The notes below the pieces were generated by a model. The model was not told the DNA's origin. It saw only the letters and a list, made by a program, of their open reading frames with translations, and made no database searches. Shown here in pieces: positions 17-34,473 of a stretch of 36,609 nt of DNA (within the stretch, counting starts at the first letter, position 1; each line of letters opens with the position of its first letter). This stretch comes from a virus, in IMG/VR virus record IMGVR_UViG_3300035034_000974, positions 1 through 36,609 of that record. One strand, given 5' to 3'. The translations under genes were made by a program, and so were the position numbers.

Positions 17-1639
17 TTAAAAATTATAATCTACTATATCAAAAGCTCCACTATCTGTTTGAGAAAGAGGTTCTTCTTTATCATCAAACAAGGCATAGTG
101 GTCATAAGTGTCTTCTTGTTTATTAAGTTTTTGATCCTGTAAGTTGAGTCCTTGTTTATTATAAATACCATGGATTAGTTGTCTTGGGTCTGCAGGGAGT
201 TCCATAACAATCCATTCTAAAGGATTAATTGCATGGTTATTCTTATCTTCAGGCTTATCATCCCAACCAGAAGAGTCTGCCTTTCTTGTCCTAAACTTAT
301 AATCCCGAAGTTCTTGGATGAGGCCTTTACAGCAATCCATAATACGAAGCTTACCATTTTCGAGATAAGTATTAAGCCTATATACTCTAGCATCCAAGCT
401 AATGTGCCCAGGCTTAAAACTAATACCATAATCCATAAAATGGTCTGATAAAGTTTTCTTCTCATAATCTCGTTTAGGTCCCGACTTAGGGTCTATTATT
501 GGGGAAGTAATCCAACCTCCCAAGGGTACATCTTGTGACGCTTCTTTAAATAAGCGAGCAAGTTCCTGAACGTTGCGGTCATTCGTTCTTACCTCCCGAT
601 AAATATATACGATAGAATGTCTTTCATCTACAGCTCCGAATAAGAAAACAGCGTCATCTGCAAGACCGTAGTCAAAAGCTACGATTCGACGCCATTGTTT
701 CGGTACTTCAAATGTAGGCACTATAAACCTCATAGCTGAAGGATAAACTAAACCTTCTGCATAGAGGAATGAACCAAAGACAAATCTATTAACCCACCAC
801 ATTGGCTTGTTTTTTATTAATTCTTGTACAAAGTTTACTGGGAGAAATTCATTAGCATCTGTAGCAGTTACATGTGCAGCTACAGCGGGGTCTCTTTCTT
901 CCTCTAATACGGCATAATTATCTACGATCTTACCATGCTTTTGAATATCGTCTGATTTCATCAATACATCTGAACGTATCCATCCCGCGTCTGGGTTTGA
1001 TTCGATTATACCTTTTCGCCAATCGGCTTGGATTTCAGGAATAGGGACCCCAGTTCTAGTAGTTTTATAGATTATATTTCCCTCTTTATCTTTCTTAGGG
1101 ACTGAAGCGGCAAGATTACGAAGTCGGGATTTAAGCTGAACAAAGGCCTCAGCTTTTACCTCAGAAGCTTCCACTATAATAAACATTGAAAGATTATAGG
1201 AACGGAGCTTATTTGGATCATCAAAAGGACGATACATTATACGATGCCCGTTCTTTAAATCCATGTATTGTTTCTGAGAAGAATACACTGCTACAAAATC
1301 TGCAGGGAGATCTGCTTCAATATCACGCTTGATAGTCTGCTCGTACTGAGATTGTACGTTGGCTCCTATTAAGGTGTTCCCAAATTTCGTAAGAAAGACA
1401 TGCTTATAGAGTTCCTGCCTAGAAGTCAATGTTTTCCCAGAACCATACCCTCCGAAATTACCTGTATAACGATGGACATCCGTGTGTACTGATTCTTGGT
1501 GTTCTTGTGGGATATATGTGTTGATATAAGTATTACATTTCTTACAAGTCAACCAGAACTCTGAAGGGCCCCCAGAGAAGGCTTTCGCAGGTTCAGTCAG
1601 GGCGTTACATCTAGGACAATAGGAGAAATCTCTTAACAT
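17..1639 (-). CDS. terL: Phage terminase large subunit
   Basis: This 540-residue protein is the ATPase-nuclease motor that packages phage DNA into proheads. Seen: a Walker A loop GGYGSGKT at residues 63-70, a Walker B-like strand ending in VEASE at about 156-160, and the RuvC/RNase H-like nuclease domain opening with AFDYG (D323) and continuing towards a late HAINPLEW segment. An N-terminal zinc ribbon (C8, C11, C32, C35) precedes the ATPase, an addition seen only in some terminases. The ATG directly follows the stop of the upstream small gene with GGTGGAG as SD, so the two are probably co-translated. It is transcribed away from the early genes, as expected for a late packaging gene. Confidence 0.93.
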   Translation of the reverse strand: MLRDFSYCPRCNALTEPAKAFSGGPSEFWLTCKKCNTYINTYIPQEHQESVHTDVHRYTGNFGGYGSGKTLTSRQELYKHVFLTKFGNTLIGANVQSQYEQTIKRDIEADLPADFVAVYSSQKQYMDLKNGHRIMYRPFDDPNKLRSYNLSMFIIVEASEVKAEAFVQLKSRLRNLAASVPKKDKEGNIIYKTTRTGVPIPEIQADWRKGIIESNPDAGWIRSDVLMKSDDIQKHGKIVDNYAVLEEERDPAVAAHVTATDANEFLPVNFVQELIKNKPMWWVNRFVFGSFLYAEGLVYPSAMRFIVPTFEVPKQWRRIVAFDYGLADDAVFLFGAVDERHSIVYIYREVRTNDRNVQELARLFKEASQDVPLGGWITSPIIDPKSGPKRDYEKKTLSDHFMDYGISFKPGHISLDARVYRLNTYLENGKLRIMDCCKGLIQELRDYKFRTRKADSSGWDDKPEDKNNHAINPLEWIVMELPADPRQLIHGIYNKQGLNLQDQKLNKQEDTYDHYALFDDKEEPLSQTDSGAFDIVDYNF

Positions 1640-7587: not shown

Positions 7588-7977
7588 ATGGCAAAAGTAA
7601 GGATAGTCGACAACGCATTAATCGTAACTAGTAGCACTAAATTGGAGGTAATAAAAGCTCTTCAAAAATTTGAACCTGAATCATTAGTCTTAATCAATCA
7701 AGAAACTAAAGATGAAATTTTTGTTGTAAGAGAAGGACACATAGCAGCCTTTAGTAAATTCGGAACAGTATTCACAGGTGAAAATACTAATGGACAAGCT
7801 ACTCTAACTTTAACTTTACCAACAGGATTGCCTGCTGAAGACAAAGAAACTTATGTAGAAGAAACTTATGGACACGCGATCTTAAACTTAAACTACTTAG
7901 AACTACAAATTGCTGAGCATGAAGACGCATTAATCGCAGCTATTAAAGACATCAAAGATTCTATCACAGTAGAATAA
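7588..7977 (+). CDS. Unknown protein heading the ubiquitin-like cassette
   Basis: 129 residues, SD GAAAGGATG. N-terminus MAKVRIVDNALIVTSS suggests beta strands; residues 60-85 are Thr/Gly-rich strands (TATLTL type); the end is a helix (LQIAEHEDALIAAIKDIKDS). It stands 17 bases before the ubiquitin-like gene, so it is probably part of the same unit. Uncharacterised small proteins accompany ubiquitin-like genes in bacterial PRTRC-type cassettes, but I cannot match this protein to one. Possible roles are target, adaptor or regulator; all are inference. Confidence 0.65.
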   Translation: MAKVRIVDNALIVTSSTKLEVIKALQKFEPESLVLINQETKDEIFVVREGHIAAFSKFGTVFTGENTNGQATLTLTLPTGLPAEDKETYVEETYGHAILNLNYLELQIAEHEDALIAAIKDIKDSITVE

Positions 7978-7994
7978 GAATGGAGGGAATATTA

Positions 7995-8228
7995 ATGATT
8001 GAAGTAACTATTGGAACAAACACCAAGAAAAAGAAAGTAATTATAGAACCTAGTGAGACATTACGTAATGTTTTAGAGGACAATGAAATTAATTATTCAA
8101 CTGCTAATTTACATCTTGATGGCACAAGTCTAGGTCTTGGGGATATAGATCAGTCTTTTGAAGAATTAGGAATCACTGAAAAATGTTTCTTAATTGCTGT
8201 TATTAAAGCTGAAAATGCAGTTGTTTAA
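7995..8228 (+). CDS. Ubiquitin-like beta-grasp protein
   Basis: 77 residues with the beta-grasp order: hairpin (MIEVTIG... KKVIIEPSETL), one helix (about residues 22-36), strand LHLDGTSLGL, a turn with SFEELGI, and a final strand CFLIAVI. This is the fold of ubiquitin, ThiS and MoaD. The chain ends AENAVV and has no terminal Gly-Gly, unlike classic modifiers, so it may need trimming, use another carboxyl end or not be conjugated. The ATG at 7995 follows GGAGGGAA by 6 bases. E2-like, JAB and E1-like genes follow, supporting a modifier role. A strong hairpin follows the stop. Confidence 0.8.
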   Translation: MIEVTIGTNTKKKKVIIEPSETLRNVLEDNEINYSTANLHLDGTSLGLGDIDQSFEELGITEKCFLIAVIKAENAVV

Positions 8229-8243
8229 TTAACCTGACACTTG

Positions 8244-8270
8244 GAGGGTCGGAAAATTATTCCGGCTCTC
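8244..8270 (+). terminator. Strong hairpin between modifier and E2-like genes, possible attenuator
   Basis: An 11-bp stem (8244-8254 with 8260-8270, two G-T pairs) with a 5-base loop, followed by a weak T-rich stretch. It could terminate part of the transcripts or stabilise the upstream mRNA, giving more ubiquitin-like protein than enzymes. Confidence 0.5.
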
Positions 8271-8305
8271 TATCTAATTTTAAGTATAGAAAGGAGTGGA
8301 TAAAA

Positions 8306-9745
8306 ATGTTTCCTTCAGGAGAATATACCCAAAGTACAAATCAATGTAGCTTATATGACCGATACAAACAACTAATAAATGAAGGACAAAGATATATAAG
8401 ACGAGAAAGTGATGTTCCTGCATCTAGTTGGTTTATAGATCCTTCGATACAAACGATGTTATTTGGCCTTTCACAACACAACCCAAAAACAAAATTTTGG
8501 TTTGAATTAGATAAAATGAGTTTTACCAACCAAGAAATAGAACGTTATAAAGAAGAAGATTTAATACCAAATGAAATATCAGACACAGATTTTGGATCCG
8601 GAACAGATAATTATGTTATCGCATTTAAACATGTCACAAGAGGCTTCGAAATTTTTAAGCATCTTGATAATAAAATCAAAGACATGAAAAATATCTCTTT
8701 AATAGCACAAGAAGACCGAAACCACCGAATACGTGTTTTTATAGATCCTGAGTATCCTGAGAAATTACAAATTGTAAGTTCTAAATATTCTTGGGAATTA
8801 ATACGTAAAATAATCGCACTACTAAATAAAATATTTCCAAAAATAAACGTACCCCCAGATTTTGAACCTATTATTAAAGCTTTTGGAGCAGGAGACTATA
8901 CAGAATGGAGTAAACTTTTTAACGAATGGTTTGAAAATAGTACTATTCTACAAGACCGTTTAAAAACAGAACTGACTAAAATGTTAAATAATGGCTCAGA
9001 AAATAAAAAAATAAGACTACGAGAATCTATTAAGCATGAAAGAAGAAACATAGATCAATTTTTAGAAAAGCTTGGGAACACATACCATCGTGTAAATTCT
9101 ATTATAGAAGATCTTACTGCTCTAGAGTTTATAGAAAATACTGAAGGAGATGAAATCTTAGAATATTTACAAAAACATCCTAAAATAAAAGATATACAAA
9201 TTATTGATGATAAATTAATATTACGTATTATAAGCCCAGCTTGTTATTATGATACAGAAGCTTTAGAACCTTATTATAGAAACAAAAACAATATAATTGG
9301 GAGCTCAGAATTCTGGAGTTATTTCTTTGAAGAAGTATTCCTAAAAGAGAAATATACATTATTTCTTGAAACTATTATCCAAATAAACATTAGGCAAAAA
9401 ATAGCAAGAAAAGAAGATAATAAATACTTAATCGGAGACTACCCAAAACAACCACATATCATGGAGCATAACTGTTGGGGGAATAACTCAGCACACATAA
9501 CTAAAGGTTTAGGAAATGGAGAATATTTTGCTGTTATTGAACAAATCGTAGGTGCTACACAGAATATTAATTTTTCAGATACAATAGTAATGAAAACATT
9601 CCTATCAAATCTAGAAAATTATGATTGGTCTAAGAAATGTTTAATAGAGAACAAAACTAAAGAAAAAATCTCGATTCAAAATATTTTTGAAAAATGTAAA
9701 GATAAAAAGGAGGAAATTGATAATGAGAACGATCTCAATCTCTAA
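8306..9745 (+). CDS. E2-like (UBC-fold) protein with a large N-terminal domain
   Basis: 479 residues. The C-terminal part (about 290-450) fits prokaryotic E2-like proteins: paired strands (IQIIDDKLILRIISP), then PHIMEHNCWGNN with the likely thioester cysteine C390, followed by a helix and FLSNLENYDW. The local pattern H-x(n)-CWGN is how bacterial E2 homologues present their cysteine. It would carry the activated modifier between the E1-like protein and a target. Residues 1-285 are an unrecognised domain, helical from about 200, which may be a target-binding or cap domain. SD AGGAGTGG precedes ATG; its end overlaps the JAB gene by 23 bases. An exact E2 subtype cannot be given without a profile search. 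Confidence 0.7.
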   Translation: MFPSGEYTQSTNQCSLYDRYKQLINEGQRYIRRESDVPASSWFIDPSIQTMLFGLSQHNPKTKFWFELDKMSFTNQEIERYKEEDLIPNEISDTDFGSGTDNYVIAFKHVTRGFEIFKHLDNKIKDMKNISLIAQEDRNHRIRVFIDPEYPEKLQIVSSKYSWELIRKIIALLNKIFPKINVPPDFEPIIKAFGAGDYTEWSKLFNEWFENSTILQDRLKTELTKMLNNGSENKKIRLRESIKHERRNIDQFLEKLGNTYHRVNSIIEDLTALEFIENTEGDEILEYLQKHPKIKDIQIIDDKLILRIISPACYYDTEALEPYYRNKNNIIGSSEFWSYFFEEVFLKEKYTLFLETIIQINIRQKIARKEDNKYLIGDYPKQPHIMEHNCWGNNSAHITKGLGNGEYFAVIEQIVGATQNINFSDTIVMKTFLSNLENYDWSKKCLIENKTKEKISIQNIFEKCKDKKEEIDNENDLNL

Positions 9746-10484
9746 ACAACAAAAAAAAGAAATTATGAAAGAATTTGGAGAATATTTAGATGATGCTAGA
9801 TTATCAAACAATAAAATTAGCTACCAAAAAAACCTTGATAAAATTCTAAAAAAAGTAAAAAAGCCTAATATTCATTTTTCAGTAGGAGCTTATATGAAGA
9901 TGCTCTACTTAATTGAACATTACAAAACAGAAATAGCTTGGCACGGTACAGTTCATAAATCTCAAAATAATTACTTTATCAATGAAATTATGGTTTACCC
10001 TCAAGAAGTAACCGCAGCTACAGCAAATGCACCAAAACATAATCTAGATTATGAAATGTGGTTAATGAACCAACCAGATGATGTTTTAGAAACAATTAGA
10101 TTCCAAGGGCACTCCCACGTAAACATGCCTACAGGACCTTCAGGAACAGATAAAGATTTTTACAACGCAATTCTACAAAGTTTAGATAAAAATGATTTTT
10201 ATATTTTTGCTATTATGAACAAACGGAATGAACTTAACATTTGGATTTACGATTATGAACAAAATATTATCTTTGACAAAGAAGATATAAACTTGCATAT
10301 CTTAGAAGCTGATGGAACACCTATAAATACTTGGTTTCAAGAACAAAAGAAGTTAGTTAAAGAACCTAAAATAGCAAAATGGCAACTGCGAAACATTCAA
10401 GATGATGAAACTGAAGAAATTGAATATCTAAGACAACTGCGAAACATTCAAGATGATGAAACAGATATAAGTTGGAGGTCTTAA
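9723..10484 (+). CDS. JAB/JAMM metalloprotease (deubiquitinase-like)
   Basis: 253 residues. The complete zinc-protease signature is visible: upstream E70 (TEIAWHG), then H130-x-H132-x7-S140-x2-D143 in HSHVNMPTGPSGTD. The family cleaves isopeptide bonds or trims ubiquitin-like precursors. Here it could process the C-terminus of the modifier, which lacks Gly-Gly, or reverse conjugation. The C-terminal tail carries a 17-residue in-frame duplication (QLRNIQDDETE...), coded by a 29-base exact repeat. ATG at 9723 follows AAGGAGG; the frame is open upstream but overlaps the E2-like gene. It is translationally coupled to both neighbours. Confidence 0.88.
   Translation: MRTISISKQQKKEIMKEFGEYLDDARLSNNKISYQKNLDKILKKVKKPNIHFSVGAYMKMLYLIEHYKTEIAWHGTVHKSQNNYFINEIMVYPQEVTAATANAPKHNLDYEMWLMNQPDDVLETIRFQGHSHVNMPTGPSGTDKDFYNAILQSLDKNDFYIFAIMNKRNELNIWIYDYEQNIIFDKEDINLHILEADGTPINTWFQEQKKLVKEPKIAKWQLRNIQDDETEEIEYLRQLRNIQDDETDISWRS
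10383..10462 (+). repeat. In-frame 51-bp tandem duplication in the JAB gene
   Basis: 29 bases at 10383-10411 recur exactly at 10434-10462. No synonymous change separates the copies, so the duplication is recent. It lengthens the C-terminal tail by 17 residues. Confidence 0.85.
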
Positions 10485-10486
10485 AG

Positions 10487-11179
10487 ATGAATCTAAATAA
10501 ACATTTAGAATTTTTCAATCCTATTAGTGATATTAAAAAACCGATTCATATAATTGGTTGTGGAGCTGTAGGGAGTACAATAGCTGAAATGTTGACCAGA
10601 ATGGGGGTAGAAAAACTAAACATCTATGACTTTGACATCGTTACAGCACATAATCTAGCTAATCAGATGTTCGACTATGGAGATATTACTGAGAAAAAAG
10701 AATTAGCTTTACGAGATATTTGCCAAGATATTAACCCTGACATAGAAATTAAAAACCATGGAGCCTACACCGATCAACATCTTGCAGGTTACATTTTCTT
10801 AGCAGTAGATAATATTGAACTACGGAAAAAAATATGTACAGATAATAAAGCTAACTCAAGTATTAAGGCTGTCTTCGATTTTAGAATGAGATTAACAGAT
10901 GCACAACATTATGCAGCTGATTGGTCAAATTCCAAACAAGTTGACAACTTAATTAATACAATGCAGTTTAGTAGAGAAGAAGCTCAAGAATCAACACCAA
11001 CTAGTGCCTGTGGGACATCACTAAATATAGTTCCTACGGTAAGAATGGTAGTATCCTTAGGCTTAGCAAACTTCATTAACTTCATTAAAAAGAAAGAATT
11101 AAAAATAATGATCTTAATGGATGCGTTTAACTTCACTATTGATGCATTTTCTTTGGCTCAAGGTGCATACCAAGAGTAA
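10487..11179 (+). CDS. E1-like/ThiF-family adenylyltransferase
   Basis: 230 residues. Rossmann nucleotide site IIGCGAVG (about 22-29), acidic YDFD (D48, D50), then HNLANQ at the place of the usual NLxRQ, with N59 where Arg is expected, and LAVDN (D108). C175 in SACGTS is a candidate for the catalytic thiol. The family adenylates the C-terminus of ubiquitin-like proteins with ATP. The chain is short, a minimal E1 without extra domains. ATG at 10487 follows GGAGGT by 7 bases, right behind the JAB stop. Last protein of the cassette; the reverse-transcriptase region follows. Confidence 0.87.
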   Translation: MNLNKHLEFFNPISDIKKPIHIIGCGAVGSTIAEMLTRMGVEKLNIYDFDIVTAHNLANQMFDYGDITEKKELALRDICQDINPDIEIKNHGAYTDQHLAGYIFLAVDNIELRKKICTDNKANSSIKAVFDFRMRLTDAQHYAADWSNSKQVDNLINTMQFSREEAQESTPTSACGTSLNIVPTVRMVVSLGLANFINFIKKKELKIMILMDAFNFTIDAFSLAQGAYQE

Positions 11180-11195
11180 TCAAACGTTTTTTTTA

Positions 11196-11215
11196 GGGGG
11201 AGCAAAATTGTTCCC
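11196..11215 (+). promoter_or_regulatory. Hairpin after the E1-like gene
   Basis: GGGAGC (11198-11203) pairs with GTTCCC (11210-11215) around AAAATT. A T8 run precedes the hairpin rather than following it, so it is not an ordinary plus-strand terminator. It separates the protein cassette from the first candidate ncRNA. Confidence 0.4.
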
Positions 11216-11236
11216 TTAAACAAATTAAGAGAAATC

Positions 11237-11568
11237 TTTTCTATATCGGATAAATTATTAGAATCTATCAAACAGATTATTACTATTGATATACACACAA
11301 TTCTAATGATTGCTTTGAGTAATACTTAAAGGACCAAAAGGTAAAAGGAGCCTATACAACCTAAACAGCATCGCCAAGAACACGTAACGGCGTATAACCC
11401 AGAAATGACCTGAAAAAAAACAACCAAAAACACAACAATCCGCCTAACAAAACCAGATAAATCAACACTTACACCTCAAAGTAGATTATATAATTACAAA
11501 AACTCTGGCCCACGGCGGAAAAGAGGACTCCGGATACCAACTGTACAAGCAAGTTAGGATATAGAAAA
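11237..11568 (+). ncRNA. Candidate retron-like RNA 1, upstream of the RT
   Basis: A 332-base gene-free segment closed by an 11-bp perfect complement (TTTTCTATATC at 11237-11247 with 11558-11568), like the a1/a2 ends of retron RNA. Inside, in order: a stem at 11262-11278, a two-part stem at 11279-11307 (ATTA/TAAT and ATTG/CAAT), the conserved hairpin 11313-11331, and a longer part with nested stems CCGCC/GGCGG (11440-11444 with 11514-11518) and CCAGA/TCTGG (11453-11457 with 11504-11508). About 11402-11500 is A/C-rich and very poor in G. The SD of the RT lies just after the closing arm. Template role is inferred. Confidence 0.6.
11313..11331 (+). repeat. Conserved RT-locus hairpin, copy 1
   Basis: CTTTGAGT, loop AAT, ACTTAAAG: eight contiguous pairs including one G-T. 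Same element as 12796-12814 and 13038-13056. Likely the common recognition element of the RT, by analogy with msr stem-loops. Confidence 0.65.
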
Positions 11569-11586
11569 TTTAGAAAGGAGAATACA

Positions 11587-12735
11587 ATGTATATTACTTT
11601 TAAGAAAAACACTCAAGAAGAAATTGTAAAACTTACATTTAAAGATGTTTATGAAAATTTTGAAACAAACAAAATACCTGTACCAGAAAGAAGCGATAAA
11701 TTCTTCAGAACTTTTACAAAACAAATAGATCAATATCAAGCAGACATAACTATACAAAAATACGATAAAGAAAATATGCTTAAAAAATTAGAAGATATAC
11801 ACCCTAGAGTACGAGAGTTATTAACTGCAGATATGTCGCACCATTACAAAACGTTTCATATACCTAAAAGACAAGGAGGTCTGAGAAAAATAGACGCACC
11901 TGAACCAGAACTAATGGAACTTCTAAGAGATATTAAAAAGATATTTGAAAAAGACTTAAAAGTATTAACACACAACTCAGCTTTTGCTTATGTCAAAGGA
12001 CGTTCTACTAAAGATGCTCTAATGGAACACCAAAAGAACGAAAGTAAATGGTTTTTAAAATTAGATATTAAAGACTTCTTTCCCAGCTGTAATGCAAAAT
12101 TTATCTTAAATCAACTAGCTGAATTATTTCCTTTTCAGATATTAATGCAAGAAACTAACACCCGTAAAATCATCTCAGATATAGTCGAACTTTGTTTACT
12201 TAAAAACAGATTACCTCAAGGAACACCAATGTCACCACTATTAACAAACTTAATAATGCTACCCCTAGATTTTGATCTAAGCTTTAGTCTAAGAAACTTT
12301 GACAGAAAACACTTTATATACACACGCTATGCTGATGACTTACTAATTAGTTGTAAATACCATTTTAATTGGGGAAAAGTACAAAATCATATCAATGACA
12401 TTTTAAAATTAAGTACACCTTTCAGAATTAAACATCAAAAAACAAGGTATGGCTCAGCTGCAGGACGTAACTGGAATTTAGGTTTAATGCTTAATAAAGA
12501 TAACAAAATTACCATAGGTTTTAGGAAAAAAGAAAGACTAAGAGCAACAATTTTCACCTTCTTTCAAGACTTGACAAATAATAACACTTGGAATACGATA
12601 GATACACAAATTCTATTAGGTAACATAAGTTATTTCCATAGAGTTGAACCAGAATATATAAATAATTTAATTTCAAAATACTCTACAAAGTTTAATAAAG
12701 ATTTTTATAATGAAACAGCAAGAATAATCGGGTAA
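11587..12735 (+). CDS. Retron-like reverse transcriptase
   Basis: 382 residues, standard length for a retron-type RT (palm, fingers and thumb, no extra domain). Seen: KLDIKDFFPS with catalytic D160, LPQGTPMSPLLTNLIM, YTRYADD (Y248, D250, D251), and a thumb segment before GFRKKERLR. The stretch AYVKGRSTKDALMEH before the first Asp resembles the retron NAxxH region but is not a clean match, and the retron VTG is replaced by NLG (297-299). So it is near retrons or related Abi/UG-type RTs, not DGR or group II intron RTs as far as motifs show. SD AGAAAGGAG precedes ATG. Three structured noncoding segments flank it; no recognised toxin-type effector is adjacent. Confidence 0.92.
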   Translation: MYITFKKNTQEEIVKLTFKDVYENFETNKIPVPERSDKFFRTFTKQIDQYQADITIQKYDKENMLKKLEDIHPRVRELLTADMSHHYKTFHIPKRQGGLRKIDAPEPELMELLRDIKKIFEKDLKVLTHNSAFAYVKGRSTKDALMEHQKNESKWFLKLDIKDFFPSCNAKFILNQLAELFPFQILMQETNTRKIISDIVELCLLKNRLPQGTPMSPLLTNLIMLPLDFDLSFSLRNFDRKHFIYTRYADDLLISCKYHFNWGKVQNHINDILKLSTPFRIKHQKTRYGSAAGRNWNLGLMLNKDNKITIGFRKKERLRATIFTFFQDLTNNNTWNTIDTQILLGNISYFHRVEPEYINNLISKYSTKFNKDFYNETARIIG

Positions 12736-24734: not shown

Positions 24735-27700
24735 CTAACTCCTATAGGTCATGTCTTTTATACGATATTGCACACTCTGCCCTGTCACTGGAATCATCCT
24801 TAATTGCATTTTACTCTTACCAGTTAAAGTATAATGTTTCTTATAGAAACTATCATACCAATCAAACTTCCTCATGTAGAAATTAGAATAATGTGTCTTA
24901 TGCCAAGTCTTACTAACATAATCCCCGCCATTCATTTGCTTGGAATAATTCTGCCAAGTAGATTCATAAGGTTTTAATTTACGCATCGTATTCCCAGTAT
25001 AAGGTTTAGGTTTATAAGGTGCAAATCTTTTAGTGGCACCCAATATACCAGGTACAACTTTATGAATTTCTTGACCTGTACGTTCAGTATATTTAGGACC
25101 AAGCTCTCCATAACGTTGCATAGCAGTACCAATAATTGGGAGGAGAGCTGAGGTCTGTCCTTTCAGACCAGTTGGTTCTCCAAAGACATTCAGTGTTTTT
25201 TTGAGGGGTTCTGGAAGCTGTTCTTGATTAGCTTTTAGAGTTTCACTCAAGAGAGAACCCGTTGGTGCGTTTAATTTACTAGCCATAGAACCTATTGGGT
25301 CTGTACCAATATTATAAACATCCATGAATGAAGGATTAGCTTTAAAAGTCATACCATTATCATACAAAGGAATGTTTCCTGAAAGAATTTGATACTGTAA
25401 AGAATAATTATGCTCTAATTCATAATGGTCTGTATCATCAAAATTCCATATCGGAGTCATTACATCTCTAAATAAATTCGCTACCCAGGGTTGATTGATA
25501 ATCGTCTCTACCCAGAAATCTAAGTTCCGCATTGTAAACGTATAGAAAGGAAATACGGCTTCCATCATACGTTCTGTATCACTCTTGATTGAATAATCAA
25601 AATGAGTTTTGGCAATAGAATAAAAAGATTCTATGTCTGTCTTACCTCTTGAGATATTATAAAGATGTTGTCCTAAACGAGAGATCTGTTCGATTACTTG
25701 GTTAGGAGCCATAGCCGCGTTAGAAAGATGTACAAAACTTTTCCACATTCCTTCTTCTTTATCATCTTCCCCAGGTCTGACTTTATAATAATTTTTCCAA
25801 GGTCCTGTAAGCCCAGCTGAAGGCCCATCCATAATGAAAGCGTGCATGAACTCATAGGTCTCTCGGTCTAAAGTAGGATTCATAAGACTAAAATAAGCTT
25901 CGACATGATCATTTCTAAATCTTCGATTAGGATCCATTTTAATAATAGTTTCTACAGCTTGATTATATTTGCTTAATAGAACACCCGCATCATATTCTGC
26001 TTTAGCAAGCTCTTTAGTCTCTCCTGTAGAGATCATATTCTTCATAGTACTATCTATGAAGTTTCTCATAAATACACCAGGACTAAATAGATAACCAATC
26101 TTATAAGTATAGATTATTTTATTCCAAAGTTTCATAGCAGGATGATCTAACTCATTAGTGTTGATTACTTCAAAAGCTCTACTATAGGTATGATAAGGCA
26201 TAACGATTGCTTCTAATCTCCGAGCATCTTTAATCGCATCCACAGAACTAGGGCTAATTTCTAACATTTCAAAATCTCTTTTACCACCTGTGACTAAAGC
26301 AACTAATCTAAATTCGGGCTGTTGCTGTAAGGCTTTCATTACTTCTTCATCTGAAGCATTTTTCATCCAACCATTGTTAATACTAAAACTTTCGTCATAC
26401 CACATTTGAGCATATTTTGCTTTAGCTGAAGAATGAAGAGCCGATTGTTCAACATTATTTTTATAGAGAGAAATTATAGTATTAGGTACATACTTCGATT
26501 TTTCTTTACGATTTGCTATAGAACCTAAGTTAATAAAATTATATCTTAACTTTCTAAAGAAATTTCTATGAGTAAAGTTTTCTAAATCGAGCATCTTTGC
26601 TTGTATTTCTTGGGGTATTTTATTATGAAGCTCTTCCAAAAATTCCTTACCTGCGAGGTCTCCAACACTACCTACCGCCCGTCCTTCTGAAAGTCTATGC
26701 AGAGAAGCTCTTGTATTCACCAAGGCCATGTTTAATTCTTCATCAAGTTCTTCACCAGCCTTACTTAAGTTTAAATCTTTTAACATAGGTTCTTCAACGA
26801 ATTCATCGTTAAGTTTAAAACGAACTTTACCTTCTTCAATAATACTTTCTAATTTTAAAGAACTTCCAAGTCCGACATACATTCGTTCCTCTTTAGATTC
26901 AATTTCTAAACCTAGTTCAGCGAGCTCATCTTTTTTAAGCATAAAATTTGCAAGGGCTTCTTTTAAACGAGGGTTATCATTAACTGTCCTAAGATTGAAT
27001 TCAAACCAAGGAGCTTGATGAACCATCAATCGTATAAGATTATTATTATCTAGCTTTAAAACTTGCTCTAATTGTTGTGTAGCTAGATTGTCAAAATACT
27101 TTCCTAAAGAATCTAAGAGTACTTGTTGCTCTTCTAAATCTGCATTGTCCATTCGTCTTACAAAAACATCTAATAGATTTTGTGTGTCTTCCAGGTCTGC
27201 AGCTAAAGCTTGTGTAACTGCTCTACTAAACTTGTTACCATGATAAGTCTGAGCTAACTTCACATAATTCTCTTTAGACTCTTGAAAAGATTTAGCAACA
27301 GCTCGTCTTATAGCTGGATCTGCGACATTAGAATCTATTGTAAACTCAAGCATAGCCTCAGCGTAAGTTTTTTCTGAGCCAGGTTTAGAATACTGATAAA
27401 CAAGTTCTCTACCTTTAGGCGTTAATAATTCAGCAACTTTAGGAGGCAAACGATCTATTAAGGCTTGAGACAGGCCGTCTCTTCTTTCGTACTGTTTATA
27501 AAGATATTCTAACATAACCCAATTTGAAAGAACATCTGGTTTATCAGTTCTAAACTTGCTCAAGAAATCTTGAGATGTAGCATTAAAGAGAGGTACGAGC
27601 GAACCTTGATCGTTTATCATAGGTCTTCCACTTAACGAAATGCTATTCATCCCAACGGGTTTTAAAACCTTTAAAGCTTTTCTAATATCAGCCGCATTAG

Positions 27701-30700
27701 CTTCTAAAAGATATGGGTTTTTAACAGCCTTGTGCATTTTATTAAGAGTTTTAGACATGCTTGTTAAAGACTTGGCAAGACTAGCATTAATTTTATCACC
27801 TTCAACAAATTTGAAGTACTCTATAATACTAGTAAAATCTACACCGACTTTAAAACCTAAGAAGTTGGGGCCTTCTGAAGAAGCATATAAGAATTTACCA
27901 GGGTTCAGATACTCCCCATACTTTTCTATAATTTGTTCATCGGTCATTTTAGGAAAAACACTTTGCATATATTCTCTAAAGAAAACCAAACCTTCAGGAC
28001 TTTCTAGCCACTCATTCGTTACACTCATCCAGCTTAATCTTTTATTTGTTTGGGATATGTTTATGAATTGTTCATAAATCATACCTCCTAGTTCTCTAAA
28101 TTCTCTAGAATAATCATTTAAAGAATTTTTATTAACCCGCATAGCAGGTATTTTATTCACACCATCTCCAGCAAGGGAATCAAACTCTTTAGCTAACTGC
28201 ATTAAGAGACTCGCCAAACGCCCATTATTTGGATTAATTAGTTTAGTTGAATTAGTCCCTAACATACGGTCCGTATAATTCCGTAAAACTTTACGCATTT
28301 CTCGGATTTCTTTTTCTGAGATCTCAAAGAACCCTTCCTTTTTACGTATTTCTTTAAGTGTGTCAATCATATCTAGCTTTTCAAAATACTTACGTTCTCT
28401 ACGTGGAAAACCTAAAGCTTTCATTCTTCCCAAGATAAATTGAATATCAAATTTTTCACCATTATGAAAAACTAAAGTAGGCGGAGTACCTGCCTTAGTC
28501 TCCATCGCTCTAAGACTATCAATAAACTCTGAGATAACTTGAGCTTCAGTACGTTGCTCTTTACTAAATTTAGCATCAAAAGCATTAAGTTGTTTTGCTT
28601 CAGTATCATACTTAGCTAACTTAGGATCAAAGAATTTATCTAGAACTATTTTCTGAGGAGTATCTAAAGGATTATTTGTGCCAGCCTTACGCCTTAGAAC
28701 AGCTACTTTTCCTGAACTTCTGAATTCTTTAAAACCAAGCTCTAATATAGAACCAGTTATAGAATATAAAGTTGTGGATTCAATGTCAGCTACGACAAAT
28801 CTTTTAATTGAGTTTTCAAAAAGTTCAGGAAGCTCTTTCTCCATAAATCTAGTAAGCCCTTCAACATCGTCACTAGCAGTATGTTTAGTACCTTCTAATT
28901 TTTCAAGACTTTGACTACGTTTCATCTCTCTTGAATTAACATTATCGTGCATTTTCTCAAGAATGTTTTTAAAGTGCCACTCAAATTGAGTATCAAATTT
29001 AACTGGATCTAACCTGGCATAGTTCTGAATGGTTGTTAAAAGCGACATCCTAGTTGTATCTGTAATACGAGCTCTGTTTAGATCTTCTAAAAAAGATATA
29101 TAACTATTATACTTTCCTGAGTATTCCATAATTTCTTCAGATAACTCTTTAAGTTTCTTCAAAGATTCTGGAACTTTAGCATCTGTGATTGTTCTTAGGA
29201 AACTACCTGTACCTTCATTAGTGTCTAAAGATTTAATAAAAGTATTGATTGTTTCCGCTTCCTTAGAGCCTACTAAGATTTTTAATAAGGAAGATACATG
29301 TTCCATTTTAAAAGTATAATACTTTTTGCCTGCTGTTACATCGAGCTCCCGAGCAGTTACTTTAATAGGATTAATATCATCTAACATAACAGTGAGGTCA
29401 TCTAAAACCCTAAGTCCTTCTTGATATTTGTTACCTTTATTTAATTGCCTAATAATTCGTTGTAATTCTAACCAGTTGTCAGCAAAGGCACTCTTAGCTG
29501 ATAGATTTTCTGCTGCTCCTTTAAAGTTGTGGATAACTTCTGCAAGATATTCTGGAGGTGTTGAAGCCCCTGCTTTTTTAACAGCACTATAAATCTCTAT
29601 AGGATTTTTTATAAAATTATATTGCCCAGAAATAGCTTCTGTGATCCCAAGATGTTTAGGTGTGCTTAAAGTCTTAGGAATATATTCATCTAAAATCTGA
29701 ATAAGTTTGTACTGAATATATTCTGTAGGATATTTAGAACCTTCCATATTCTTTAACTCTTGAGTTAATCTTTGGCGAAGAGCCCAATGCACTTTTTGAA
29801 AAGCTTGGAAATCTTTTTGTTCTTTTCTAAAAACTGAGATAGCTTCTTCATAACGTTCTTGAGGGTATTTTAGGTTTACTGCTTTTTTTCTTAATTTACT
29901 TAGTTCAAAAGATCTTTCTTTTAAATATTCAATATATCTTTTTTCTGAATCTTTAAACCCAAAAATAATTTTGCTACTTAATTTACGATAAAACATGTAA
30001 GATGTTTTAGATTGTACTTTCTCTGCAATTAGATTAACCAAAGACGAATTCTCATCTAACCAACCACTTAGATTTTCTAGATCTGGAAATTGTTTATCTA
30101 ATTCGTGGACAACTTCTTTTACTTTTTTGGGATCAATCTCTATAGGTTTTACAATAGGTTGTAATTCATTAACCTTCAAATGTTTAAGTTGGCTTTCTTG
30201 AAGAACGTCAATAATCTTGCCTTGTTTAATAGCTTGGTCGTACATCTTTTTCATCTTCATATTGATGTTGACCCCTTCTTCAAAAGGATCGACTTCTTGG
30301 AGTGTGTCTTTAAAAAGTTTATTATAACCCGTCATAAAATTATTTATTCGAACCTGTATATTAAACTTATAAAAATCTACTTTTGATAGGTCGCCTTTAC
30401 TGTCAAAAATTTGTTTAGAAATATCATCAATAAAAGCATTAATGTTAGCTTCTATTTCATCAATTAATTTATTATAGAAAGGAGTATTTCCTTTATAAAG
30501 AACGTTCTGTTTATAACGGTTTATTAAAGGTAACTTCTGTACGTCTTTTTGAAGCCTGTGTAGTTGTTGATTTAAACCTCTAATAATTGAATCTTGTTCT
30601 ACAATCTTAGTTTTAACTTTAGTGTTCTCTCTAATTTCTTTAGCGAGAGCGATGTCTTCCTGAATTCTAAAAAAGTCTGAAAAGACATCATTTTTATTTG

Positions 30701-33125
30701 CGTTATAGATATTACGTCTATACCAATTATCTAAAGTTTTTATTAAAAACTCTTTAGGATCTCTCATGGCAGAAACAAATTTAGGCCTTGGCTTGTCTAT
30801 AAATTTTTGAGCTTCTTTTTTACTCATGCTTTTTAAGTATTCTTCCTTCGTTTTCAAACGTTCTGAAAGTTTTTTAATTTCCCAATCATCTTCTGCCATT
30901 AAAACCTTATGATCTTTTCTAGCTTTAATTATTTTTAATTCTTGTTGTTTTATATAGTCTTTAAAAACAAATTCAATCTCCTCATAAATTAGGTCATCTT
31001 CCAGATATTCAAAATAATCTTTATCTTTAACATTATGAAGTTCAATATATTCATCAAAAAGATTTTTTTCTTTTAGAAGTGCTTCGAAACCTTTCATATC
31101 TAAAACAATATTTTCAACGCCTTCAATATAATCGACACCTTTTTTATTTCTTATTTTATATAATTCTTTTAAATCTTTTTGAAATTGTTTTAGATTTAAA
31201 TCATCTAAATATTCTTCGTAGGTCGGCGTAGATTTTTTGATTGTATCTACTTCAGAAAGTAACTTAGCTTCTGCTTCTTTATTTTTAAGAACGACTTTAT
31301 CAAAAACTTTTTGCATATAGTTCCTTAGATTAAGATCTTCATTAATATAATCTAAAGCTTCTAAATTATTCTGATATTTTTCTTTAAGTTTTGAAAGATC
31401 TTCTAATTGACGTCCAAAGATATGAGGAATCTCTGTGTCTCCGAATCCAGTAATCTGACGAAGAATTTCACCTTCTCGTTCTTCTACCCCCGTAATTAAA
31501 CGTATAAGATTGGTCTGGTTATTCTGATCTTGGACACGAACATCACTAAAAAAATTAACAGTTTTAATTTGGATCTCGTCTATAGATTCTTTTCTAATAC
31601 TAGACATCTTTTCAAGACGTTCGATTTCTTGTTTCTTACTTAATATGTTTAGAGTTTCTAACGTTTCATTTAAAAAATCTTCATAGTTCTGAAAGGCGTT
31701 TCCAGACCTTGCGTTTATTTCTTTAATTTTTGAGATATACTCACTGATTGATTCTACCTTATGTTTCTTTTTAAAGTATTCCATGACTTCAACTATGATC
31801 TTACCATAATCTTCTCCAGAACTTCGGAGTATTTTCTCAATTTTTATTTGATCTGCCAAGGCTGATTTTTGCCAATCAATAGCTAACATCTCTGGAGACA
31901 TTTTCCCTTCTTTAGCTAAGCTAAGAGCAAGATTAAGTCTACTCGTTACATCCGTGTAGACTTCATTAACCTCATCAAAACGCATGAAAGAATAAGTATC
32001 ATCAAACTCTCTATAAGGTTCTAATCTAGCACGATGTTGAGACGCAGTATATTTAGCAACCCAACTATTTCCTTTACTAATAACATACCAAGCAGGGTAA
32101 AGACCTGTAGCCCCAGTTGCACTTTTAAGTATTCCTCGTTCATACTTCTCTGTGAGTTTAACCATTTTGCGAATACCTTGTAGATTTGTAATTGACATAA
32201 AATCTGTCGCAATAGATTCTGCATTTTGAAATAATTTAACAAAATCAGATGTGATAAGATCGTCTGTTAATTTTAAAGACCCTTCAGTTTCCATACCTCG
32301 TACTACAGCTTTGATTGAGTCATCCATAGTTACCTTATCACCCTTGAAATAAGCTTTAATAGCACGTTTAGATAGACGTGTGTAAGCTTCCTCACTAAGT
32401 TCTTTACCAACATCCCCCGCAGTTGTTTTAAGAGCTTTAGCAAGACTACCTTTCATAAGCCCAGTTGCGATTGCTTTCGTACCAAAGGTTGCCCAATTTA
32501 AAGGGTCGGTTACAATCTCTGCCATAATATCTGTGACTAGATTACCAGTATGCCAATCATAATTTTTACGACCTTCACCACCTACGCCTAGGGCATGTTT
32601 CACACCTTCTGTTCCCGCCATAGCCTTAGCTTTAATTACATTAGCTCCTGAAGCGGCATCAAAAGTTTCTCCTAAATTAATAAGTTGATTAATACCGAAA
32701 GCTTTCCAATTTCCTTTAGCTAAAGGTTGGATAGTTGTTTTGTTTAAAAGATCTAAAGAACTCGGGATGATATTTAAGAACGGTATCTTTTCAATACCAC
32801 CCCAATCTCTCCGTTTCATATCTCTATCAAAAGTACCTAAAAGAACATCTGCTAAAGAATTTATTTCAAAAGGATCATTATAATTAGACATAACCGACTC
32901 GCGTTGATATGGTATGTAAGGAGGGTTAAGTTGTCGGAACATCCAATTCCTTTTAGAAGTTTCACTAGCTGAAGAACGTGGAGGTAAATCTACAGCAGGC
33001 CAAGCTTCAGATTTAAAATAATCATAGGGGTCAGAATTAAACGGAGTCTGTTCCCACTCCGTAAAAGGTATTTCATATTGTTTTCTTTTAATTTCTTCCT
33101 CTGTTGGAAAAGGTAAGTAACCCAT
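24735..33125 (-). CDS. Giant virion-associated polyvalent protein with DnaQ-like exonuclease domain
   Basis: 2796 residues, about 23% of the window. A minus-strand GGAGGTGAT is 6 bases before the ATG at 33125. The N-terminal region (about 1-420) is amphipathic with membrane-like helices; 420-1440 is Lys/Glu-rich helical. At 1447-1560 an embedded DEDD exonuclease is visible: VADIES (D1447, E1449) and HNGEKFD (D1560); the third acidic motif is less clear. The C-terminal 450 residues (including FPFYTFTMRNLDFW) resemble domains of large polyvalent phage proteins injected with DNA. I infer an ejected internal protein that protects or processes entering DNA. Last gene of the late operon. Confidence 0.75.
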   Translation of the reverse strand: MGYLPFPTEEEIKRKQYEIPFTEWEQTPFNSDPYDYFKSEAWPAVDLPPRSSASETSKRNWMFRQLNPPYIPYQRESVMSNYNDPFEINSLADVLLGTFDRDMKRRDWGGIEKIPFLNIIPSSLDLLNKTTIQPLAKGNWKAFGINQLINLGETFDAASGANVIKAKAMAGTEGVKHALGVGGEGRKNYDWHTGNLVTDIMAEIVTDPLNWATFGTKAIATGLMKGSLAKALKTTAGDVGKELSEEAYTRLSKRAIKAYFKGDKVTMDDSIKAVVRGMETEGSLKLTDDLITSDFVKLFQNAESIATDFMSITNLQGIRKMVKLTEKYERGILKSATGATGLYPAWYVISKGNSWVAKYTASQHRARLEPYREFDDTYSFMRFDEVNEVYTDVTSRLNLALSLAKEGKMSPEMLAIDWQKSALADQIKIEKILRSSGEDYGKIIVEVMEYFKKKHKVESISEYISKIKEINARSGNAFQNYEDFLNETLETLNILSKKQEIERLEKMSSIRKESIDEIQIKTVNFFSDVRVQDQNNQTNLIRLITGVEEREGEILRQITGFGDTEIPHIFGRQLEDLSKLKEKYQNNLEALDYINEDLNLRNYMQKVFDKVVLKNKEAEAKLLSEVDTIKKSTPTYEEYLDDLNLKQFQKDLKELYKIRNKKGVDYIEGVENIVLDMKGFEALLKEKNLFDEYIELHNVKDKDYFEYLEDDLIYEEIEFVFKDYIKQQELKIIKARKDHKVLMAEDDWEIKKLSERLKTKEEYLKSMSKKEAQKFIDKPRPKFVSAMRDPKEFLIKTLDNWYRRNIYNANKNDVFSDFFRIQEDIALAKEIRENTKVKTKIVEQDSIIRGLNQQLHRLQKDVQKLPLINRYKQNVLYKGNTPFYNKLIDEIEANINAFIDDISKQIFDSKGDLSKVDFYKFNIQVRINNFMTGYNKLFKDTLQEVDPFEEGVNINMKMKKMYDQAIKQGKIIDVLQESQLKHLKVNELQPIVKPIEIDPKKVKEVVHELDKQFPDLENLSGWLDENSSLVNLIAEKVQSKTSYMFYRKLSSKIIFGFKDSEKRYIEYLKERSFELSKLRKKAVNLKYPQERYEEAISVFRKEQKDFQAFQKVHWALRQRLTQELKNMEGSKYPTEYIQYKLIQILDEYIPKTLSTPKHLGITEAISGQYNFIKNPIEIYSAVKKAGASTPPEYLAEVIHNFKGAAENLSAKSAFADNWLELQRIIRQLNKGNKYQEGLRVLDDLTVMLDDINPIKVTARELDVTAGKKYYTFKMEHVSSLLKILVGSKEAETINTFIKSLDTNEGTGSFLRTITDAKVPESLKKLKELSEEIMEYSGKYNSYISFLEDLNRARITDTTRMSLLTTIQNYARLDPVKFDTQFEWHFKNILEKMHDNVNSREMKRSQSLEKLEGTKHTASDDVEGLTRFMEKELPELFENSIKRFVVADIESTTLYSITGSILELGFKEFRSSGKVAVLRRKAGTNNPLDTPQKIVLDKFFDPKLAKYDTEAKQLNAFDAKFSKEQRTEAQVISEFIDSLRAMETKAGTPPTLVFHNGEKFDIQFILGRMKALGFPRRERKYFEKLDMIDTLKEIRKKEGFFEISEKEIREMRKVLRNYTDRMLGTNSTKLINPNNGRLASLLMQLAKEFDSLAGDGVNKIPAMRVNKNSLNDYSREFRELGGMIYEQFINISQTNKRLSWMSVTNEWLESPEGLVFFREYMQSVFPKMTDEQIIEKYGEYLNPGKFLYASSEGPNFLGFKVGVDFTSIIEYFKFVEGDKINASLAKSLTSMSKTLNKMHKAVKNPYLLEANAADIRKALKVLKPVGMNSISLSGRPMINDQGSLVPLFNATSQDFLSKFRTDKPDVLSNWVMLEYLYKQYERRDGLSQALIDRLPPKVAELLTPKGRELVYQYSKPGSEKTYAEAMLEFTIDSNVADPAIRRAVAKSFQESKENYVKLAQTYHGNKFSRAVTQALAADLEDTQNLLDVFVRRMDNADLEEQQVLLDSLGKYFDNLATQQLEQVLKLDNNNLIRLMVHQAPWFEFNLRTVNDNPRLKEALANFMLKKDELAELGLEIESKEERMYVGLGSSLKLESIIEEGKVRFKLNDEFVEEPMLKDLNLSKAGEELDEELNMALVNTRASLHRLSEGRAVGSVGDLAGKEFLEELHNKIPQEIQAKMLDLENFTHRNFFRKLRYNFINLGSIANRKEKSKYVPNTIISLYKNNVEQSALHSSAKAKYAQMWYDESFSINNGWMKNASDEEVMKALQQQPEFRLVALVTGGKRDFEMLEISPSSVDAIKDARRLEAIVMPYHTYSRAFEVINTNELDHPAMKLWNKIIYTYKIGYLFSPGVFMRNFIDSTMKNMISTGETKELAKAEYDAGVLLSKYNQAVETIIKMDPNRRFRNDHVEAYFSLMNPTLDRETYEFMHAFIMDGPSAGLTGPWKNYYKVRPGEDDKEEGMWKSFVHLSNAAMAPNQVIEQISRLGQHLYNISRGKTDIESFYSIAKTHFDYSIKSDTERMMEAVFPFYTFTMRNLDFWVETIINQPWVANLFRDVMTPIWNFDDTDHYELEHNYSLQYQILSGNIPLYDNGMTFKANPSFMDVYNIGTDPIGSMASKLNAPTGSLLSETLKANQEQLPEPLKKTLNVFGEPTGLKGQTSALLPIIGTAMQRYGELGPKYTERTGQEIHKVVPGILGATKRFAPYKPKPYTGNTMRKLKPYESTWQNYSKQMNGGDYVSKTWHKTHYSNFYMRKFDWYDSFYKKHYTLTGKSKMQLRMIPVTGQSVQYRIKDMTYRS

Positions 33126-33132
33126 TTTGTTA

Positions 33133-34473
33133 TCACCTCCAGGCTCGCCTAACTCCAGAGCTGCGTGTTTGATTATTCGTACTTCTTTTTTTTGGTTTGA
33201 GAGGGTCATTGGCTCCACCCCAACCAGGAGCGTACTTCTCATAAGGTTTGATTTTATCATACATCTTATCTCTTTGTGCTTTAGAGATTAATTTATTCTC
33301 GTAAGCACTATTAAATGAACCTCTTACTTGACCATAAGTCTTTCCCTCAAACATATCTTTACCACCTAAAGAACCTAGTTGACTCATACCTTGTTGTTCA
33401 AGACCAAAGAGCATTTGCGAATCAGCGTCACTAGAACCACCTCCACCTGAACTACTTCCTCCACTACTAGAACCCCCATAGCTTCTTGCTTGAGCTCTCG
33501 TGCCCGCTAAGTTCTGATTTGCAGCATATTTAGTTCCTGCTAGGTTCTGATCTGCGGCATAACGTTCAGCCTCAACTTGGGCCATCATACCTTCTAGTTG
33601 TTTAGAAGCTTGGTCCATCCTAGCTTGATAGTCCATTTCTCCTACACCAAACTGAGTGTCAGCGGCGTAGTTAGCTGAGTCAAGTTGTCCAATCTGTTGT
33701 TTGAGCATGTTAGCTGCATCCATGGCATCTTGCGAATTTCTAGCCATATCAGCAGTCTTTTCATCCTGGAGAATATTACGTTCTTGCCCTAGCTCTGTAG
33801 CTCCAGCTGCACTTTCTTGCCCGACACCTAAAATAGCACTTAGTTCATTAGCAGCTTGCATACCTCTAGAAGCTCCAGTTGCTACGGCTGCAGCGTTATT
33901 CTTTCGGATAGTATCAAGAGCTGTTGTCTGAGTCCCATACATTTGGTCATAAAATTGATTTTCGGTTTTAGCAAACGCTTTATCCTTTGCGGCGTACTCC
34001 GTTTCAGTAGCTTTATTAAACTTCTCTAGAATAGATTTTTCATCGTAGTCTATCCCATACAGTTTTGCAAGATCCTCACCCATAAGATTTGGTTGCTTAT
34101 ATGGCTTTTCTTCTGGTGCTGGTGCTGAGGACCCCCCAGAAGATGTAGATTTGGGTTTAGAACCTGAAGTGTTTAAAGACCTTCCTGCATATATTTTATT
34201 CTTGTCTTTAATATTGTTGTCTTTAACTAATTTATCAACAGTCGTATCAAACTTCTTAGCTATGGAAGTTAAAGTATCCCCTGATTTAATTTTATAATCT
34301 CCAGAACTTTTAGAACTAGAACCAGAGCCAACGTTTTTCAACGTGGCCCCAGCTTGAATTTTATTCTTATCTTTAATATTATTGTCTTTAACTAACTGTT
34401 TAACAGTCGTTCCAAACTTTTTAGCAATAGCCGAAAGCGTATCACCTGATTTAATTTTATAACTATCAGCCAT
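33133..34473 (-). CDS. LysM virion-type protein
   Basis: 446 residues. Two LysM repeats (about 3-48 and 59-104: YKIKSGDTL...), which bind peptidoglycan, share almost the same sequence, so they are a recent duplication. A Ser/Gly/Pro linker leads to a helical part rich in Ala, Gln and Met (about 145-340), like internal or tail-tip structural proteins. A Gly/Ser run (about 330-350) follows, then a compact end. Its 3' end carries the SD of the giant protein gene, implying joint production. Role: virion wall-contact or DNA-ejection component, by inference. Confidence 0.7.
   Translation of the reverse strand: MADSYKIKSGDTLSAIAKKFGTTVKQLVKDNNIKDKNKIQAGATLKNVGSGSSSKSSGDYKIKSGDTLTSIAKKFDTTVDKLVKDNNIKDKNKIYAGRSLNTSGSKPKSTSSGGSSAPAPEEKPYKQPNLMGEDLAKLYGIDYDEKSILEKFNKATETEYAAKDKAFAKTENQFYDQMYGTQTTALDTIRKNNAAAVATGASRGMQAANELSAILGVGQESAAGATELGQERNILQDEKTADMARNSQDAMDAANMLKQQIGQLDSANYAADTQFGVGEMDYQARMDQASKQLEGMMAQVEAERYAADQNLAGTKYAANQNLAGTRAQARSYGGSSSGGSSSGGGGSSDADSQMLFGLEQQGMSQLGSLGGKDMFEGKTYGQVRGSFNSAYENKLISKAQRDKMYDKIKPYEKYAPGWGGANDPLKPKKRSTNNQTRSSGVRRAWR

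Follow-up and report, generated by a model that had tools for sequence, protein, structure and literature searches.

The DNA analysed here, hereafter the window, is the full length of the IMG/VR virus record IMGVR_UViG_3300035034_000974 (36,609 nucleotides (nt), positions 1 to 36,609), a contig that belongs to a real tailed phage. Its plus strand carries, from position 7588 to 12735, a conserved unit made of the genes for a small partner protein (P0), a ubiquitin-like modifier (Ubl), an E2-like protein, a JAMM protease and an E1-like enzyme, followed by a structured non-coding RNA and a reverse transcriptase (RT). A preliminary description of this DNA had proposed a ubiquitin-like conjugation cassette at 7588-11179. 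The Ubl, E2, JAMM and E1 open reading frames (ORFs) are all found there, on the same strand and in this order, but the unit runs past 11179, since the structured RNA and the RT that extend it to 12735 had been missed. P0 (129 amino acids, aa) is encoded at 7588-7977, Ubl (77 aa, with the tail ...IKAENAVV) at 7995-8228, the E2-like protein (479 aa) at 8306-9745, JAMM (253 aa) at 9723-10484 and E1 (230 aa) at 10487-11179, with gene starts revised by ribosome-binding sites for Ubl (ATG 7995, GGAGG upstream), JAMM (ATG 9723) and E1 (ATG 10487). The tight coupling ascribed to the four conjugation genes is apparent in a 23-nt overlap between E2 and JAMM and in gaps of 2 nt between JAMM and E1 and 77 nt between Ubl and E2; P0 and Ubl lie 17 nt apart.

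The conjugation genes and the partner protein

Alignments were seeded from two sequences, those of the window and of the phage contig MT835544.1, followed by a scan of IMG/VR, and the scans of viral contigs with E1, RT and JAMM were taken to the best 80 matches each. Single-sequence scans of viral contigs with the E2-like and JAMM proteins of the window returned nothing, as did a first genome scan, and E1 alignments were needed. Neither the E2-like protein nor JAMM matches any family of Pfam, PHROGs, NCBIfam or PADLOC, and the Ubl is recognised by none in these four collections (for a few Ubls, DUF2604 gives 0.01-0.02, which falls short of its cut-off). The three proteins were therefore examined through conservation and structure.

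The E2-like protein contains the motif PHIMEHNCWG, as previously noticed, and its H384 and C390 are present in 100% of 72 relatives whose overall identity is only about 15-25%. The predicted architecture comprises a mixed N-terminal region, a coiled coil (residues about 214-275), a UBC/RWD domain (residues 276-445, encoded at 9131-9640, with the Cys390 codon at 9473-9475) and a C-terminal helix. In the AlphaFold model of the window protein (predicted local distance difference test, pLDDT, 86), residues 276-445 were aligned by VIA-align with the RWD of Knl1 (Z 7.6) and with UbcH7 (Z 5.8 over 112 residues), as well as with Ube2e2, Pex4 and Atg10. Although these Z values are moderate, one and the same segment, which holds the invariant H...C pair, is matched by several independent E2/RWD chains, so the UBC fold expected around C390 is borne out by the model. 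Foldseek with the whole model gave no significant match, and the UBC/RWD similarity emerged only with VIA-align, on the same candidates. In one of the related loci (L083, 5533-7007), the E2-like gene is broken into two overlapping frames.

The JAMM protein shows E70, HSH at 130-132, S140 and D143, which corresponds to the full HxH-x7-S-x2-D signature, and the E, H, S, H, S and D residues are kept in 100% of 76 relatives. The best solved structures for its profile are those of the proteasomal deubiquitinase RPN11 (E 0.0012), which points to a JAMM/JAB isopeptidase. The C-terminus of this protein contains a direct repeat spaced by 51 nt (10383-10465; QLRNIQDDET twice), and the tail of JAMM varies among family members. 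In the case of E1, the Pfam ThiF model (3.7e-20) and a family profile matching UBA5 and other E1s indicate a ThiF-like adenylating enzyme. Its nucleotide-binding and adenylation residues (GCGxVGS, D50, N56, K71, D108 and R133) are conserved in about 100% of some 75 relatives and C175 in 97%. Overall, the conservation of these predicted catalytic residues across relatives is far above chance.

The modifier was modelled through a relative (L024) in which Ubl and P0 are fused, with 71 aligned family members that include the window Ubl. The AlphaFold model (pLDDT 96) presents residues 1-75 as a beta-grasp, with SUMO/ubiquitin matches of up to Z 9.0, in agreement with the fold anticipated for the small protein. 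None of the 78 stand-alone Ubls ends in Gly-Gly. Their family tail is K-x-D-N-A, which forms the very last residues in 34 of them, and a C-terminal Ala is found in 54. Ubl and P0 are separate genes in 74 loci and a single Ubl-P0 fusion, with P0 at the Ubl C-terminus, in 26, and both states are almost mutually exclusive among loci; P0 is therefore regarded as a functional partner of Ubl. The junction of the fusions reads K-x-D-N-A-A, which makes it an obvious candidate site for cleavage by JAMM. P0 has no match in Pfam, NCBIfam or PADLOC, its PHROG matches are weak and unnamed, and its viral matches are uncharacterised phage proteins. Its fold stays unassigned, the structure match lists of the fusion model being taken up by the Ubl part. 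The earlier suggestion that the gene at 7588 was an added head gene is not supported, as the gene matches no named family and instead behaves as a Ubl partner. Some single loci (L031, L081 with three Ubl, L113 and L116) hold additional Ubl, P0 or Ubl-P0 genes, which suggests several modifiers per phage.

A retron-clade reverse transcriptase and its upstream RNA

The last gene of the unit (11587-12735, plus strand) encodes an RT of 382 aa with a YADD motif, a conserved N-terminal extension and a QGTPxSP motif. It matches Pfam RVT_1 (2.5e-21) and the NCBIfam model of retron St85 (1.5e-59), and the family profile retrieves the structures of Ec83 (1e-41), Ec78 (4e-36) and Ec86 (1e-26), with group II introns at about 1e-17. 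The scores for retron models and structures thus stand well above those for group II introns and DRT enzymes, and the RT can be placed by its sequence in the retron clade.

The coding genes of the cassette lie close together in the window, but in most loci E1 and RT are separated by 270-420 nt. Both ends of this gap are conserved and the middle is variable. The ends are complementary and are named here a1 and a2, after the end repeats of retron RNAs: a1 lies near the 5′ end and is followed by G, and a2 lies just upstream of the RT and is preceded by AG. When these G and AG letters are required, 28 of the 71 gaps have 8 or more Watson-Crick pairs between a1 and a2, where dinucleotide shuffles would give 0.35, and 14 of the 71 have 10 or more, a number that was not reached by any of 1,420 shuffles. 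In 32 sequences anchored on the pairing, three or more pair types occur at every one of the eight innermost a1/a2 positions; the shuffle comparison is nevertheless the fair test, because anchoring for covariation itself selects pairing. The a1 segment is followed by G and then by two hairpins, the second of which has a loop of 3 nt and often one bulge. This second form occurs in 28 of the 32 relatives, where 0.7 would be expected, and it shows many compensatory changes.

The window copy is a predicted RNA of 332 nt (11237-11568, plus strand), the fold of which has a z-score of -5.2, none of 100 shuffles being as stable. Its a1 (TTTTCTATATC, 11237-11247, with G directly after) forms 11 Watson-Crick pairs with a2 (GATATAGAAAA, 11558-11568, with TTAG directly before), and between them the predicted fold contains a first msr hairpin (11253-11311) and a second one (11313-11331) with a 3-nt loop, CTTTGAGT AAT ACTTAAAG, which has its equivalent in relatives. 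Rfam gave no match within the window. The msr-msd RNA of retrons has the same layout (PMC8867640), and the RNA is described here as retron-like and of the msr-msd type.

Conservation of the unit in tailed phages of gut Clostridia

The order P0-Ubl-E2-JAMM-E1-RNA-RT is kept in almost all loci of the IMG/VR relatives, and the linkage is seen in each of the three scans. An RT is found downstream of E1 in all but one or two of the best 80 loci of the E1 scan. Starting from the RT, E1, JAMM and E2 are present in 68 of 68 loci with at least 5 kb upstream, and Ubl in 66 of them. Starting from JAMM, the RT is present in 69 of 70 loci with enough downstream sequence. When the flanking ORFs of 75 loci are clustered, E2, JAMM, E1 and RT are present in 64-74 of them and the Ubl/P0 cluster in 49. 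The best of the unrelated same-strand neighbours reaches 22 of 75; the flanking genes turn over. Downstream of the RT, a protein of about 940 aa occurs in 22 of 75 loci (L050, 10063-12882, and 21 others); it matches Pfam RdRP PF05183 (2e-5) and is possibly a QDE-1/YonO-like RNA polymerase, which was not seen in the window.

Gut Clostridia are the hosts of the group of tailed phages that carries the unit. The window encodes a terminase large subunit (TerL; 20-1639, minus strand; phrog_2 1.2e-19, Terminase_3 1.7e-12), so that the Ubl, E2, JAMM and E1 set is carried by a phage, as had been proposed, along with an amidase, a helicase, a primase, a DNA polymerase and a RecE-like protein. TerL is found in 36 of 50 related records and a relaxase in none of the 50. 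In a scan of genomes, 42 loci came out as close relatives, nearly all of them from animal-gut metagenomes and binned to Clostridia, and the gene pattern recurs in about 40 contigs binned to bacteria. In several of these bacterial-bin contigs TerL lies 20-25 kb away from the cassette, so the binned loci are taken as phage sequence too. No copy of the cassette in a bacterial defence setting was recognised among the loci found. In some records (for example G002, G013 and G023), the TerL matches contain in-frame TGA or TAG, which may reflect stop recoding, introns or neighbouring frames. Finally, the minus strand of the window holds an ORF of 2841 aa (24735-33260) between replication and LysM genes, with no PHROG match and a marginal Pfam match.

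A putative composite system and its alternatives

The reading that we favour, at somewhat better than an even chance, is that of a phage composite system in which reversible Ubl conjugation occupies the effector place of a retron-like element. The parts, their order, the catalytic residues, the folds and the structured RNA follow from the sequence and the models, and a working scheme can be drawn from them. E1 would adenylate the C-terminal carboxylate of Ubl, at a K-x-D-N-A end in the place of Gly-Gly; the activation of a non-ubiquitin terminus has precedent, because Cap2 of the cyclic oligonucleotide-based anti-phage signalling system (CBASS) activates the C-terminus of a non-Ubl substrate (PMC12355090). 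The modifier would then pass as a thioester to Cys390 of E2 and be joined to amino groups of target proteins, and JAMM would strip the tag; activation, transfer, conjugation and reversal are all proposed with fair confidence. JAMM may also free Ubl from the Ubl-P0 fusions, with a cut likely after D-N-A, and P0 would act as a dedicated partner of Ubl, either as its first substrate, as a carrier or as an adaptor. In parallel, the RT would copy the msd part of the RNA into multicopy single-stranded DNA (msDNA), priming at the G beside a1. With less confidence, and by analogy with other retron particles, the RT-msDNA particle could sense or gate conjugation, possibly through the N-terminal region and coiled coil of E2. 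The least certain step is the use that the phage would make of the system in the host cell, most likely against competing phages or host defences. The benefit to the phage is speculative and could lie in excluding competing phages, subverting host defences or tagging its own proteins.

Several observations weigh against this composite system. On the side of the modifier, Ubl has no C-terminal glycine, and the window Ubl, with the tail K-A-E-N-A-V-V, has two extra residues past the Ala. On the side of the retroelement, the VTG motif of retron RTs is missing and a conserved NxxLGLxxN (xLGLxxN) stands in its place, so the element is called retron-like and not filed as a retron; a known toxin of the retron type is likewise absent. 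A clear a1/a2 is missing from about half of the gaps, and in at least five loci (L010, L037, L040, L047 and L050) E1 and RT are separated by only 9-17 nt, so that these loci either have the retron-like RNA at another place or lack it; none was recognised near these RTs by a strict hairpin rule that also misses the window copy, which leaves its absence unproven. As to linkage, the three viral scans share many contigs and each keep the best 80 matches, and thus show tight linkage within the family, and not its frequency among all retron RTs, and the constant neighbourhood speaks for linked function, not for physical coupling. The synthesis of msDNA is universal among the retrons studied (PMC8867640), and for the window element it is predicted.

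Among the alternatives, the Ubl cassette and the retron could be two independent functions that travel together, uncoupled, in an early region of one phage lineage. All the carriers found are indeed phage or phage-like contigs, and many have additional sequence or genes that separate E1 from the RNA or JAMM from E1, which implies that tight transcriptional coupling is not needed. However, the set persists while its neighbours change, none of them being shared by more than 22 of 75 loci, and its genes co-occur in 68 of 68 and 69 of 70 loci despite a divergence that leaves the E2-like proteins at about 15% identity; such independence is therefore considered rather unlikely. A similarly low probability is given to a pathway that tags the virion or replication proteins of the phage itself, with an RT making structural or priming msDNA; this is close to the preliminary description, which had thought of virion or host proteins as targets. 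This proposal would fit the confinement of the unit to phages, with TerL about 20-25 kb off in several bacterial-bin contigs, and the presence of P0 as an obligate small partner, but the unit has no structural gene, P0 has no head family match and no conserved adjacent candidate for a virion substrate is seen. A sulfur-carrier biosynthesis cluster of the ThiS/MoaD-ThiF-JAMM kind is much less probable still and clearly disfavoured: E1 does match ThiF-type models and some sulfur clusters pair ThiS, E1 and JAB (PMC1779556), but the window unit includes an E2-like protein whose His and Cys are invariant, lacks the Gly-Gly end usual in the tail of thiocarboxylate carriers (0 of 78 Ubls) and its conserved set has no sulfur-metabolism gene. 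The poorest candidate, to which hardly any weight is given, is a diversity-generating retroelement beside a Ubl cassette, as might be suggested by a phage RT that is preceded by an A-rich non-coding stretch, against which stand the QGTPxSP motif and retron-clade matches of the RT and the lack of adenine-biased template/variable repeats in the window or the loci scanned.

The composite reading bears on two kinds of systems, bacterial ubiquitin-like systems and retrons, each known chiefly as a weapon of bacteria against phages. In the present case it is phages that possess Ubl conjugation and a retron-like element, in one unit conserved over deep divergence, and the conjugation part is a compact and complete E1-E2-deconjugase set with an unusual modifier tail and protein families absent from the libraries. 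If both halves are coupled, nucleic-acid sensing by msDNA would be linked with reversible protein tagging, which raises the question of whether an msDNA particle can serve as an on/off switch of protein conjugation. A literature search found no description linking retrons to Ubl conjugation, a prior mention being possible; the pairing of a Ubl set with a retron-like RT and RNA is thus undescribed in the literature found, and suggests one combined system.

Comparison with known systems

Bil (ISG15-like) systems and type II CBASS (Cap2/Cap3) share with the window unit the E1, E2 and JAMM chemistry, the small size of the unit and a setting in the conflict between phages and bacteria. In type II CBASS, however, E1 and E2 form a single chain, and they are separate in the window. 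The window set also differs from both Bil and CBASS in being carried by a phage, in the non-Gly tail of its Ubl and in the retron-like element alongside. When confronted with models of Bil and CBASS proteins (PADLOC-DB and the Pfam E2, JAB and E1-E2 models), the unit gives a match only for its E1 domain, to the E1-E2 models, and none for Ubl, E2 or JAMM. The PRTRC cassette of plasmids likewise unites Ubl, E2, JAMM and ThiF, each encoded by its own gene, but the NCBIfam PRTRC models match neither Ubl, E2, JAMM nor P0, and the window E1 scores 21 bits against a PRTRC_ThiF cut-off of 145. Filing the window cassette under Bil or PRTRC, which the preliminary description had named together with Bub, is consequently not supported by these models; a named Bub model was not seen in the libraries used.

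Among phages, pairs of Ubl and JAB proteins in tail assembly (lambda-type TAPI/TAPK) were described in 2006 (PMC1779556). These phages likewise combine a Ubl with a JAB protease, but without E1, E2 or RT, and among tail genes. Sets centred on an E1, with genes that are JAMM-like or probably encode Ubl/E2 and are mostly annotated as hypothetical or as thiamine biosynthesis protein, are present in the crAss-like phage cr126_1 (L004, 2284-6651), Flavobacterium phage FpV4 (L005, 2607-6618) and Xanthomonas phage PhiXhv-15 (L003, 2748-6627). Their E1 proteins belong by profile comparison to the superfamily of the window E1 (hhalign 97.7-99.6%), their gene order is similar and the JAMM of FpV4 reaches 88%, whereas their Ubl and E2 profiles are not alignable with the window family and no RT was seen beside these sets. 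Closer relatives are the contig MT835544.1, with the same genes in the same order, RT included, and Siphoviridae sp. ct96x5 and ct3o911, with the P0 and Ubl folds, all of them deposited without functional description.

In the case of retrons (St85/RT_II-A, Ec78, Ec83 and Ec86 types), the features in common are the RT clade, an upstream RNA with a1/a2, the G beside a1, the msr hairpin with a triloop and the variable middle. The differences are the Ubl-conjugation set at the effector place, the N-terminal extension of the RT, its xLGLxxN for VTG and an msDNA that is only predicted. The unit can thus be regarded as a combination of two known kinds, and possibly as a new class of system. Such a class, to which we give slightly less than an even chance, would be a retron with Ubl conjugation as its output, kept by phages, with an Asp-Asn-Ala modifier end and an obligate partner domain.

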